Program-made: the position numbers and the translations under genes
Origin: an uncultured Erysipelotrichaceae bacterium
Lineage (GTDB): Bacteria > Bacillota_I > Bacilli_A > Erysipelotrichales > Erysipelotrichaceae
Assembly: GCA_944326825.1 (NCBI GenBank)
Contig: CALVFL010000032.1
Coordinates: 1-64,000 of the forward strand
Direction of reading: 5' to 3'
DNA: 64,000 bases
Notes under the pieces: generated by a model
Seen by the model: the letters and a program-made list of their open reading frames with translations, nothing else
What the model was told of the DNA's origin: nothing
The model's database searches: none
Part shown: positions 57,824-62,146 of the stretch, piece by piece
Layout: the number at the start of each line of letters is the position of its first letter
How positions within the stretch are numbered: position 1 is the first letter of the stretch

Positions 57824-58180
57824 TCAATGTTCTTCATCTAACTTTTGATATTCTTCTTCTTTAAAACCGACTAATACTTTATCTTTGCTTATCAAAAGCG
57901 GTCTTTTCACAAGCATCCCATCAGTGCTTAAAAGTTTCAGTATCTCATCATCACTCATATCTTTGAGTTTATCCTTGATGCCAAGCTCCCGATAGAGTTT
58001 GCCAGAAGTGTTAAAGAATTTATTTATGGGCAAGTTACTCATTTTGACCCACTTTTTCAGTTCATCATAAGTGGGATTATCAGTATTGATAGCTCTTTTG
58101 GTATAAGTGATTCCATGATCATTTAGAAACTTTTCAGCCTTCTTGCAGGTTGAACATTTTTCATAACAGATAAATAACAT
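57824..58180 (-). CDS. ArsC/Spx-family protein
   Basis: The 118-residue protein has a thioredoxin-like fold with CSTCKKAEKFL (CxxC at about 10-13), the Spx/ArsC insertion and the conserved RPLLISKDKVLVGF. Lone family members (YffB, MgsR, Spx relatives) act in arsenate or redox stress, or with RNA polymerase. Last of the six-gene operon that begins at 62134. Confidence 0.85.
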   Translation of the reverse strand: MLFICYEKCSTCKKAEKFLNDHGITYTKRAINTDNPTYDELKKWVKMSNLPINKFFNTSGKLYRELGIKDKLKDMSDDEILKLLSTDGMLVKRPLLISKDKVLVGFKEEEYQKLDEEH

Positions 58181-58181
58181 C

Positions 58182-58910
58182 TTATCCCTCCCTTACAAAG
58201 ATATATTCTTTATCATCTGATAATTCATCACTAAATTTATAACCCAGTTCTTTAAATCCCTTTAAAGTTATAGGATCACTAATCTTATTGACAGCCATAT
58301 ATCTGACCATCGCTCCTCTGGCTACCTTGACATAGATGCCCTTTTCTAAAAGTTTATTGCCGCTCTTTTCTTTAAAACGGATATTTATGACGTTATTTAG
58401 ATAAGGGGTCACTGCTTTAGAATATTCATCACTGGCTAAATTGATCAAAAGTTCATCTTTAAAGAGTTTATAAAGATCATGCCAGTAATCATAGAGATCT
58501 TTATGATCGTTTATAGAAAGCTTACTGCCCATCTCTAAACGATAGGGAACGATAAGATCAAATGGTCTTAAAGCTCCATAAAGACCAGACAGGATATAAA
58601 GATGCTCGTTCAGATAAGCCAGCTCATCATCATTCATGACATCAGGAGCCATATATTTATATTGGATGCCATCATAAGCGAAAAGAGCTGTCAAGTATGG
58701 TCTGGTTATATCAGTATTTCTTATCGTTTGATACATCTTTTCAGTAATGGCCATAGAAGTTTTATAGAGTTCTTTAAGTTTTAAAAGATCAAGACTTTTA
58801 AGATGATCATAAAGAACGGAAGCTTCTTTCAGATATAAAGGATAAGAGTTTTGATATTCAAAATCATTCTTATCAGTGATCTTTTTGGCTGGCGAGATGA
58901 TGATCTTCAT
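58182..58910 (-). CDS. yaaA: YaaA peroxide-stress protein
   Basis: The 242-residue protein has the DUF328 signature MKIIISPAKKI and LSGLYGALRPFDLIVPYRLE, then RGAMVRYMA. YaaA lowers free iron and protects DNA from peroxide in E. coli. Starts overlapping the previous gene by 4 nt and ends 1 bp before the next. Confidence 0.95.
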   Translation of the reverse strand: MKIIISPAKKITDKNDFEYQNSYPLYLKEASVLYDHLKSLDLLKLKELYKTSMAITEKMYQTIRNTDITRPYLTALFAYDGIQYKYMAPDVMNDDELAYLNEHLYILSGLYGALRPFDLIVPYRLEMGSKLSINDHKDLYDYWHDLYKLFKDELLINLASDEYSKAVTPYLNNVINIRFKEKSGNKLLEKGIYVKVARGAMVRYMAVNKISDPITLKGFKELGYKFSDELSDDKEYIFVREG

Positions 58911-59380
58911 TTAAGTTTAAAATCCTTTTTGAATTTAGTTAAAGCATCTTTAAAACTATAAAAGATCTCAATGTCATTGGCTTTTAAAGAACCCACTACA
59001 AAAGAATTATAGCCAAGTGATGATTCCAGACCTTTTAGACCGTTGCGTTTAAGACGGGAATCGGAGAATACCGGATAGATCCTGACATCTTCATGATCCA
59101 TATATCTTTTAATGGCTACACCAAGACAAGTGCAGGTGCCGCTGTCTTCAGTAGCCAGATCATAGAAAATGGCGTTGGCTTCTTTGATGTATCGATAGTC
59201 ATTCAAAAAGATGTCTTTAGAGGCATAAGGAGTATCATCATCAGGATTGAGATCGATCGGACTGATCAGTCTGGCGTTTAGATCATTGTCACTGATGATC
59301 TCGCTTATCAGCTTTCCTTCCAGTCTTCTTTGAGCCTGATCAGCTTCGGTAAATAAAGGTCCGGCAATATAGATGATCAT
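58907..59380 (-). CDS. Nucleoside 2-deoxyribosyltransferase-like protein
   Basis: The 157-residue protein begins IIYIAGPLFTEADQAQRR, the family opening, with FYDLATEDSGTCTCLGVAIK carrying the nucleophile region (here Glu/Asp-rich) at about 75-95. It swaps bases on deoxyribonucleosides in salvage. In the stress-type operon it may also clear damaged bases; that is inference. Confidence 0.85.
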   Translation of the reverse strand: MIIYIAGPLFTEADQAQRRLEGKLISEIISDNDLNARLISPIDLNPDDDTPYASKDIFLNDYRYIKEANAIFYDLATEDSGTCTCLGVAIKRYMDHEDVRIYPVFSDSRLKRNGLKGLESSLGYNSFVVGSLKANDIEIFYSFKDALTKFKKDFKLK

Positions 59381-59383
59381 TTC

Positions 59384-59890
59384 TTATTCCTCCTTCAGCC
59401 AGTCTAAGATTGCATCACGGCTTTCATCGACTAAAGAACCTTTCAAAGCTAAAGGTTTTTTGATGATCGCACTATGGCAAACACTTTCAAGACCCTTGAC
59501 ACTGTTGGCCAGACCGCTTCCTTCATGAGTGCAGAAAGGGTGAATGATCTTGTTAGTAAAGTCAAAACTTTCAAGGAAAGTATAGACGACTTTTGGCATA
59601 TCACCGCAATAGTTAGGATATCCTAAATAGATCTCATCGTATTTATCGATACTTTCAAGATTTTCTTTAAGTTCAGGACGGGCATTGTTTCTAAAATCAG
59701 CTACGACTTCCCTGACACATTCGTCATAATTTTCGCTGTATGGTACAAGCGGCTCTATCTTGAAGGTATCAGCCCCCAGTTTATCGGCGATCAGTTCGGC
59801 CACTTTTTGTGTGTTGCCTTTTTCTAAATATATCTTCTGTCCTCCAAAGTGGTTTTCGCCGCCTCTTGAGTAATAAGCTACAAGTTTCAT
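59384..59890 (-). CDS. Flavodoxin
   Basis: The 168-residue protein has a flavodoxin_4 layout: YYSRGGENHFGGQKIYLEKG, with GNTQKVAELI for the FMN phosphate, then IYLGYPNYCGDMPKVVYTFL and THEGSGLANS. It carries electrons as FMN and can stand in for ferredoxin. It sits between patB-like and deoxyribosyltransferase genes with 3-4 bp gaps. Confidence 0.88.
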   Translation of the reverse strand: MKLVAYYSRGGENHFGGQKIYLEKGNTQKVAELIADKLGADTFKIEPLVPYSENYDECVREVVADFRNNARPELKENLESIDKYDEIYLGYPNYCGDMPKVVYTFLESFDFTNKIIHPFCTHEGSGLANSVKGLESVCHSAIIKKPLALKGSLVDESRDAILDWLKEE

Positions 59891-59894
59891 AATA

Positions 59895-61067
59895 TCATCC
59901 TTTCAAGATCGCATCTAAGCGATCAAATACTTCTTTGACTGTTTTATCAGAAGTAGCTAAATTAAGTCTTACCCAGTTTTGATAGTTTTTATCAAAAGCT
60001 TCGCCAAAACTTGGCAATACTTTCCATTTCTTCAGCATGAATTCTTTGATGTCCATGCCGTTTAATACTTTTTCGAGGTTGATAAAGATCAGATAAGTTC
60101 CTTCTAGAACCGTATATTCCAGGGCATATTTATCAAGGATTTTTTGAGCGATCCGATAATTATCTTCAATGACTTCGATCAGGTCGTCTAACCATTCATC
60201 GGCATATTTAAAGCCAAAGTAAGAGGCGTAAGCGTTAAAGACCAAAGGCATTCCTAAATGATGGATCTGATTATAGGCATCAAATCTTTCTTTTAATTCC
60301 TTAGCAGCAATAACGACCTGTGTATGGGCAAAAACAGCCAGATTCAGCGTCTTTGATAAAGCGGTGATCGTGATGATGTGATCGTTGTACCCAGGATCGA
60401 TCCCTAAAGCTGGCTGGTGTTTAAAACCTTTCATGATCAGATCGCTATGCACTTCATCAGAGATGATCAAAACATCGTGGCTTATAAGCAGATCAAAAAG
60501 TTTAGAAAGCTCTTCTTTTGTGAAAACTCTTCCGACAGGGTTATGAGGATTGCACAAGATAAAAGCTTTGATGTGATGTCTGGCGAGTTTGTCTTTGACA
60601 TTTTCATAATCGATCGTGAAATAACCGTTATCATTGATAAGCGGCGATTCAACAACTCTTCTTTTAGAAGTCAGGATCGCATTTTTAAACTGATGATAGA
60701 CCGGCGTTAAGATCAGGATCTCATCATCTTCTTTTGTAAAACAGTTTAAAAGATCAAAGATGGCGGTTACGGCTCCATTTGTGAAAGAAAGCCACTCCTT
60801 TTGATAAGTGATGCCATGATGGCGTTTATGCCAGTTTATAAAGGCATCTTCATAATCTGAAGGAAGATAGGTATAGCCAAAGATGCCTCTCTTGGCGATC
60901 TTTGCAAGGTTTTCGGTTATCTTGTCGCAGGTCTTGAAATCCATGTCGGCGATCGATAAAGGCAGGATCTCTTTGTCATGATAGGTGTTATAAGTCTGAT
61001 CATACTTGCGGGAATCAGTATTATAACGGTCGATATAATACTTTTGGATAAATTCTTGAGCGTTCAT
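59895..61067 (-). CDS. MalY/PatB-type aminotransferase/C-S lyase, second copy
   Basis: The 390-residue PLP enzyme has LPLSIADMDFKTCDKITENL, NPHNPVGRVFTKEEL and TALSKTLNLAVFAHT with the Schiff-base Lys. It is a paralogue of the enzyme at 19764 and probably also a beta-lyase acting on a sulfur amino acid. Unlike that copy it is not beside an importer but inside an operon of redox and stress genes. Confidence 0.88.
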   Translation of the reverse strand: MNAQEFIQKYYIDRYNTDSRKYDQTYNTYHDKEILPLSIADMDFKTCDKITENLAKIAKRGIFGYTYLPSDYEDAFINWHKRHHGITYQKEWLSFTNGAVTAIFDLLNCFTKEDDEILILTPVYHQFKNAILTSKRRVVESPLINDNGYFTIDYENVKDKLARHHIKAFILCNPHNPVGRVFTKEELSKLFDLLISHDVLIISDEVHSDLIMKGFKHQPALGIDPGYNDHIITITALSKTLNLAVFAHTQVVIAAKELKERFDAYNQIHHLGMPLVFNAYASYFGFKYADEWLDDLIEVIEDNYRIAQKILDKYALEYTVLEGTYLIFINLEKVLNGMDIKEFMLKKWKVLPSFGEAFDKNYQNWVRLNLATSDKTVKEVFDRLDAILKG

Positions 61068-61069
61068 CT

Positions 61070-62134
61070 TTACTCCTGATACTGGATCTGCTTTAAAACG
61101 GCATCAGCAGTTTCTTTATCTTTTAAATAAGCGATGATGGCATGGGCAAATTCAAAATCAGCCCCTAAGCCTTTAGCGGTGATGACGTTATCCTTGATGG
61201 CGACTTTGCCTGTCTTTGGTTTTTTAGAACATTCAAAGCCTGGGAAGCAGACAAATTCTTCATCGCTCACAAAGCCTTCTTTAATGAAGATACTGGGAGC
61301 GGCACAGATAGCAGCGATCAGTTTTTTGGCTTCATAGAACTCGTGCAGTTTGGCAATTAGCGGTTTGAAAGCGTAAAGGTTATCAGTTCCCGGTAAACCG
61401 CCCGGCAGTACTAAAGCCTGAACTTCGCTGAAATCAACATCTTTGAATAAACGGTCTGTCTGATAGGTAAGACCATGGGAAGAAGTTACCAAAAGATCAT
61501 CGCTGATCGAAACTAACTCCACTTCCATCTTAGCTCTTTTTAGTAGATCATAGACGATCAATGCTTCGCACTCTTCATGCCCTTGGGCACAGAATATCAA
61601 TGTTTTCATTGCGGACCTCCTTTTTAGAAAACGAGTATATTTGCTGACATCACTGATGTGAAAGGCGATGCCATGGTTTTGCAAGAGAGTTTTAAAGGTC
61701 TTGATGTCATCTTTTTTGGCATCATACAGTTCATATTCGATCTCATGATCTTTAATGCCCAAATATGCTGATTCATCAATGCATAACTCGCCTTTAGGAT
61801 ATTTCTTCAGATAACGGACAGTTTTAAGATCGCCCAGATATTTAGGATCTTCAATGGCCAGTTCATTTAAGACTGCTTTGATCTTAGGATCGTTGATGTC
61901 GTTGTCTTTAATGGTGAATTCATATTCTCTTACTTCATTGTTTATGAAATGTTTTAAAGTAAAGGTGAACTTGTTATCGATCTCTCTGATCCGCATCCCC
62001 ATATTATCTTTAGCACTATAATAATGATTGGTCTGTTTGATGATCGAATCAAACTCTATATTATTGACAAGTCTTGTGAATTCTTCTTTATTTATCAAGA
62101 TCTTATACTCTTTTTCAACATGGTATTTATTCAT
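61070..62134 (-). CDS. CYTH-domain protein fused to a DJ-1/PfpI protein
   Basis: The 354-residue frame joins two domains. Residues 1-174 form a CYTH fold (EKEYKILI, the ExExK entry of triphosphate tunnel enzymes, with RYLKKYPKGELCIDES). Residues 176-354 form a DJ-1/PfpI domain (LIFCAQGHEECEALIVYDLL, nucleophile elbow AAICAAPS). No stop codon separates them. At the junction lies AAAAGGAGGTCCGCAATG, an ideal ribosome binding site 6 nt before the ATG at 61609 (residue 176). So the DJ-1 half can be made alone, while the full frame would give a fusion. TATAAT ends 6 nt before the first ATG. The operon continues through five more genes. Confidence 0.85.
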   Translation of the reverse strand: MNKYHVEKEYKILINKEEFTRLVNNIEFDSIIKQTNHYYSAKDNMGMRIREIDNKFTFTLKHFINNEVREYEFTIKDNDINDPKIKAVLNELAIEDPKYLGDLKTVRYLKKYPKGELCIDESAYLGIKDHEIEYELYDAKKDDIKTFKTLLQNHGIAFHISDVSKYTRFLKRRSAMKTLIFCAQGHEECEALIVYDLLKRAKMEVELVSISDDLLVTSSHGLTYQTDRLFKDVDFSEVQALVLPGGLPGTDNLYAFKPLIAKLHEFYEAKKLIAAICAAPSIFIKEGFVSDEEFVCFPGFECSKKPKTGKVAIKDNVITAKGLGADFEFAHAIIAYLKDKETADAVLKQIQYQE

Positions 62135-62146
62135 ACCTATATTATA
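62135..62146 (-). promoter_or_regulatory. -10 box 6 nt before the ATG at 62134
   Basis: On the minus strand TATAAT (62146-62141) is followed by ATAGGT and ATG. AGGT could act as a weak, too-close Shine-Dalgarno. Confidence 0.5.

Follow-up and report, generated by a model that had tools for sequence, protein, structure and literature searches.

A CYTH-DJ-1 gene fusion in Erysipelotrichaceae with a conserved internal Shine-Dalgarno sequence suggests two products from one transcript

If two genes of an operon come to share one reading frame, is the second protein still made on its own? This question is raised by a locus of an uncultured Erysipelotrichaceae bacterium, in which a CYTH and a DJ-1 domain are encoded in a single frame with a ribosome binding site and an ATG at the seam. 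We analysed the locus within a stretch of 64,000 nucleotides, here called the window, and in related genomes. The claim of the original prediction that two unrelated domains share a frame without a stop was borne out by the 354-codon frame and by matches in Pfam and NCBIfam.

61070..62134, minus strand: CYTH-DJ-1 fusion ORF, 354 aa, 40.8 kDa, single frame without a stop
61628..62116, minus strand: CYTH domain, residues 7-169 (PF01928, 58.7 bits, cut-off 23.2; fold match to BH2851, 2gfg)
61070..61609, minus strand: predicted separate DJ-1 product of the internal start, 179 aa, 19.8 kDa (TIGR01383, 140.3 bits, cut-off 131.25)

The Pfam profile DJ-1_PfpI matched residues 176-335 of the fusion above its cut-off, and the second half also passed the equivalog cut-off of the NCBIfam model TIGR01383 (DJ-1 family glyoxalase III). 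Nine fused genomes were aligned: the CYTH N-terminus reads EKEYK, an instance of the ExExK pattern that is the CYTH signature, in the window and six further genomes, and EKEYA in G182 and G183, and the Cys in AICAAP of the DJ-1 half, the conserved Cys of the DJ-1 nucleophile turn, is invariant in all nine. An AlphaFold model built from 52 aligned sequences, used here in place of a model without alignment (mean pLDDT 33.3), had a mean pLDDT of 95.6 and a pTM of 0.82. In this model the last CYTH helix (residues 165-174) extends into the seam, and the first strand of DJ-1 starts at 177; a Foldseek search with it returned DJ-1 structures (best 4xll) as well as the CYTH protein BH2851 (2gfg). Judged from these matches, the window fusion is a CYTH (YjbK-like, triphosphate-tunnel) protein joined to a DJ-1/YajL-type protein, and it appears genuine and evolutionarily kept.

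The seam contains four elements that bear on a second start:

61610..61627, minus strand: six-codon junction LKRRSA, mostly within the last CYTH helix (165-174)
61616..61621, minus strand: internal Shine-Dalgarno (SD) sequence AGGAGG, translated as Arg-Arg, with a 6-nt spacer to the internal ATG
61607..61609, minus strand: internal ATG (Met176), in frame with CYTH
61606..61608, minus strand: latent TGA inside ATGA, +1 frame, the kind of stop that most unfused neighbours use

The junction AAAAGGAGGTCCGCAATG was present as described, the codons of the seam being CGT TTT CTA AAA AGG AGG TCC GCA ATG AAA, and a start at Met176 gives the 179 residues that had been expected for free DJ-1. The ATGA of the window locus is not a stop/start overlap: both domains lie in the same frame and no stop separates them. 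That the seam holds an internal ribosome binding site was likewise confirmed. In the 47 window ORFs of at least 150 codons, with their ends trimmed, AGGAGG occurs once in 47,898 interior nucleotides, counted in any frame, and this is the seam site; of 23 Arg-Arg pairs in window ORFs, the one at the seam alone is encoded by AGG-AGG. Its predicted pairing with the 3´ end of the 16S rRNA (-12.5 kcal/mol) is surpassed by one of 51 window ORF starts, each scored at its own best SD, and the anti-SD GGATCACCTCCTTTC has one exact copy in the genome. At the fusion's own ATG the SD energy is -3.0 kcal/mol, effectively none. RNA folding predictions found the SD partly or largely paired in G000 (the window species) and G183, and the ATG likewise in G001 and G183, with no clear pattern around the seam. 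The internal SD may also be masked by elongating ribosomes. Other in-frame combinations of AGGAGG and ATG inside ORFs were seen at codon 88 of a 412-aa ORF (loci L175/L176, G183) and at codon 206 of a 247-aa ORF (L179/L180, G002).

How the fusion itself could be started is suggested by a candidate promoter element directly in front of it:

62141..62146, minus strand: TATAAT as candidate -10 element for leaderless transcription, 6 nt from the fusion ATG, no SD

With the last T of a -10 box at -7, transcription begins at the AUG itself. The fused clade and its near neighbours comprise 13 genomes, of which 11 have TATAAT upstream of the CYTH ATG, at a distance of 6 nt (8 genomes) or 7 nt (3 genomes); G006 and G008 lack it. 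None of five more distant unfused genomes has this box, and the CYTH start carries a recognisable SD in four of them and a weaker one in the fifth (G262). With TATAAT and no SD at the first ATG and a strong SD at the internal one, the two starts thus seem to use different modes. The fusion's own start is probably leaderless, to judge by this spacing, and we infer that the internal start would be the stronger of the two in the cell. According to the accessible text of a survey of leaderless genes (PMC3160421), these carry a TANNNT signal about 12 bp before the start, which the TATAAT of the window, 6-7 nt before the CYTH ATG, fits. The Firmicutes leaderless genes given there sit in Lactobacillales and Mycoplasma, and a search of the main text for words beginning with Erysipelotri- gave nothing; our literature search for leaderless genes in Erysipelotrichaceae turned up no paper that looked relevant. 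In the window, leaderless-like starts make up 7 of 113 ATG candidates (CYTH-DJ-1 included) compared with 61 of 2,614 ATGs overall, which suggests that leaderless initiation is no rarity here. TATAAT-like boxes 6-7 nt before an ATG with almost no SD are found at the window ORFs 46906, 12077, 44848, 25327, 33324 and 21286, and TATAAT- or TATCAT/TAACAT-like boxes at the same distance from a CYTH ATG at L202, L212, L214, L258 and L265, which belong to a Solobacterium sp. UBA1789 record, Breznakia, Erysipelothrix and other Erysipelotrichaceae records.

Genomes were scanned at the level of the genus (9), the family (272) and the order (315). Ten of the 315 genomes of the order have the fusion, confined to three genera: seven of the nine genomes in the window's genus (G000, G001, G002, G003, G004, G005 and G008), G182 and G183 in a second genus and G207 in a third. 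The records of the relatives are uncultured Erysipelotrichaceae or Firmicutes MAGs, and those with the fusion are MAG or draft assemblies. Among named genomes relatives were recovered by an alignment-based scan, a single-protein scan giving none; DJ-1 was present in 10 of 79 CYTH loci of named genomes, all ten belonging to the fused clade, and nearly all g3 loci retrieved had DJ-1 with no adjoining CYTH match. In G006 and G007, also of the window's genus, CYTH and DJ-1 lie in separate frames that overlap as ATGA. The loci retrieved from the family-level set contained unfused adjacent pairs in G038, G052, G054, G260, G261 and G262, with TGA of ATGA as the CYTH stop in four (G038, G052, G260 and G261) and TAA in two. 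In the split relatives L015 (G054), L061 (G038) and L078 (G052), the end of the CYTH coding sequence already contains the SD of DJ-1; in G038 and G052 this SD is read in the Arg-Arg frame that the fusions use.

The fused genomes differ at the seam. AGG AGG, a 6-nt spacer and ATG AAA are found in G000, G001, G005 and G183, and in G207 the motif is weaker, a GGAGG placed 11 nt before ATG AAA. Both the SD and the Met are gone in G002, G003, G004 and G182, the latter encoding Arg-Arg as CGG-CGC and having Leu (CTT) where others have ATG; G008 has no SD and an ATG a few codons away. SD and ATG are thus retained in five of the ten fused genomes and the SD is gone in the other five, the two elements being nearly always kept or lost together. 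Six codons lead from a conserved R-F/C to the Met position in G000, G001, G005, G182, G183 and G207, and this stretch is about one codon shorter in the clade of G002, G003, G004 and G008. The relatives therefore display three states: split with a stop/start overlap, fused with the SD, and fused with no SD, where the fusion would be the only product. Since half of the fused genomes have no SD, free DJ-1 is not essential everywhere.

Is the SD kept for its own sake where it persists? AGG accounts for 13.1% of 633 Arg codons in G000, 13.0% of 414 in G001, 10.1% of 414 in G005 and 5.5% of 437 in G183, so that AGG-AGG in all four by chance has a probability of about 9e-9; this value assumes Arg-Arg as the sole constraint and independently equilibrated codons, and it is a lower bound as the sequences share ancestry. 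Where two of these four species share a residue, its codon is the same in only 47-53% of cases. As controls we used rpoB, ileS and both domains, in which nine columns have Arg in every row present (three or four rows; rpoB without G001) and AGG in one row or more: none of the nine was AGG throughout, compared with both columns at the seam, a contrast whose weight hinges on there having been one old fusion and not several young ones. G001 and G005, which very likely share one fusion, give a weak test when taken alone, with AGG in both at two of six control sites. The Arg-Arg pair may partly be retained for the sake of the protein (compare G182). Overall, AGG-AGG conserved across four diverged species suggests dual products, as does the contrast between the first start, with TATAAT and no SD, and the strong internal SD.

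We therefore favour, with a probability of about 0.68, one transcript with two modes of starting, which would yield a kept fusion and in addition free DJ-1 from the second gene's original start. Transcription from TATAAT would produce an mRNA beginning at or beside the first AUG, on which the fusion would be initiated with no SD; ribosomes would also load at the AGGAGG of the seam and make the 179-aa DJ-1. Cells of the window species then probably hold the 40.8-kDa fusion together with a 19.8-kDa DJ-1, and the two could mix as DJ-1-type dimers. We infer the use of both starts, like the ratio of the products, from the sequence. Of the two explanations offered originally, a programmed pair of isoforms or a recent stop-codon loss, the first is better supported (SD and ATG in five of ten fused genomes, AGG-AGG in four) and the second was not sustained: most unfused neighbours stop at the TGA within ATGA, in the other frame, and the fused state spans three genera. 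A junction stop, proposed as a check in relatives, is present in the unfused ones, mostly out of frame, and absent in the nine other fused genomes. Because the TGA of the neighbours mostly lies in another frame, fusing requires an indel and not a change of the stop. Two other routes to a second product were considered. A separate DJ-1 promoter is not proposed: the sigma-70-like site that precedes the seam (61662-61634) falls within chance numbers, 13 such sites having been found where 16.9 were expected. Programmed frameshifting was rejected since both domains share a single frame.

Compatible with two products from one transcript is a history of repeated independent fusions, up to five, in which one indel would have sufficed each time, the ATGA overlap and the SD inside CYTH being already in place. 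We constructed a species tree from RpoB and IleS (G001 without usable RpoB, G003 without RpoB and with partial IleS, G004 without IleS; the final tree omits the outgroup G058 and the long-branched G039). It groups G007 with G000, G001 with G005, and G002, G003, G004 and G008 with each other (100/100 each), and places G006 outside these groups with modest support (83/75); the DJ-1 tree conflicts with this, G006 joining the SD-less clade (98/95). G007, the closest sampled relative and sister of the window species, is unfused, and the split tails of G006 (KDRLKEVKE) and G007 (KNRLEEIK) are alike, as if inherited unfused. A replacement of the G007 DJ-1 from elsewhere left no sign, as this DJ-1 groups with that of the window (98/95). 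Between G007 (locus L008) and the window, CYTH is 55% and DJ-1 76% identical, CYTH having diverged faster there. With G007 unfused, the window's lineage may have acquired its fusion on its own, which would then be one of several. Against repeated fusions, parsimony on this tree requires a minimum of three changes (one fusion and two re-splits) compared with five if fusions alone are allowed, and the six-codon junction is identical in the six genomes listed for it above. We would give repeated fusion somewhat less than even odds. If the fusions were independent and recent, the conservation of the SD would mirror the earlier split state.

It might also be that the SD is a relic of the split state: the fusion would be real and functional, only the full-length protein would matter, and the SD would be about to decay as in five relatives. 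Its loss in half of the fused genomes, for which two changes are needed on the RpoB/IleS tree, the unfused sister G007, which means that the fusion of the window species may be young, and the weakness of the test on G001 and G005 speak for this. The retention of AGG-AGG in four genomes despite their low codon sharing and the nearly joint fate of SD and ATG speak against it, and we regard a mere leftover as unlikely. A further, speculative and in our view rather improbable extension of the two-start reading is a reversible switch, in which one indel toggles between fused and split provided that SD and ATG-A persist, since the TGA in ATGA at once becomes a stop; free DJ-1 would be made either way, and loss of the SD would lock the fusion. 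Finally, two genes joined by a missed indel in a single MAG contig, as the split sister species might suggest, are very improbable, given the fused frame in nine other genomes including two MAG series (CALU/CALV and CASE accessions), the same six-codon junction in several of them and neighbouring genes that are intact and recur in relatives; the missed frameshift near 61610-61640 that was to be checked for is thus unlikely.

Downstream of the fusion lie genes that hint at its role:

59895..61067, minus strand: PatB-like C-S lyase (best NCBIfam match, below its cut-off)
59384..59890, minus strand: flavodoxin
58907..59380, minus strand: nucleoside deoxyribosyltransferase-like (28.9 bits, cut-off 28.8)
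58182..58910, minus strand: peroxide stress protein YaaA (over cut-off)
57824..58180, minus strand: Spx/MgsR-type regulator (over cut-off)

They recur in members of the genus in varying subsets and in a similar operon context, the flavodoxin gene not being found in the loci of relatives. The YaaA, Spx and C-S lyase neighbours suggest a role in oxidative or thiol stress. In the accessible text of PMC10602874, the pneumococcal CYTH protein YjbK is a competence regulator with biochemistry not known. According to the part of PMC10666635 available, subunits of complexes are over-represented among ATGA gene pairs, which would fit a cooperation of CYTH and DJ-1 that predates their fusion. The accessible part of PMC3711429 held nothing specific to the CYTH-DJ-1 locus.

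In-frame nested genes are a known class, and a CYTH-DJ-1 fusion with a credible second start would belong there, the states of the relatives being informative; the seam has the SD (AGGAGG) and, at the proper spacing of 6 nt, the in-frame ATG by which such genes are recognised. According to the available text of PMC11899642, Cas11 comes from an internal start inside cas8/cas10 of type I CRISPR-Cas. There too one ORF gives a long protein and its C-terminal part by in-frame internal initiation, here as a prediction; unlike in Cas11, the two halves are unrelated families and are separate genes in sister species. The overlapping, coupled hsdM and hsdS genes of EcoKI, described in the accessible part of PMC3510504, were fused by removing the frameshift, remained functional and were proposed as an evolutionary intermediate. 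Overlapping genes were brought into one frame in both cases, by engineering in EcoKI, whereas the CYTH-DJ-1 fusion is natural and found in several species. CR.NsoJS138I is a natural joining of neighbouring genes for a C protein and a restriction enzyme, of a kind that has probably arisen more than once; in the text available of PMC3850674, the host tested showed the full-length protein only and an internal SD is not discussed. Our literature searches found no paper combining CYTH domain, DJ-1 and fusion, or gene fusion, internal Shine-Dalgarno and operon.

For operon genes, fusion is as a rule deduced from its start and end states, but here split, fused with an internal start and fused-only loci coexist in one small clade, making the middle stage, and selection for the old start after fusion, directly testable. 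If the reversible switch were true, living species would show each step from operon to two-domain enzyme, and the relative amounts of fusion and free subunit would be set by the leaderless start against the SD start. More generally, domain fusions called from genomes may conceal a separately made second protein.
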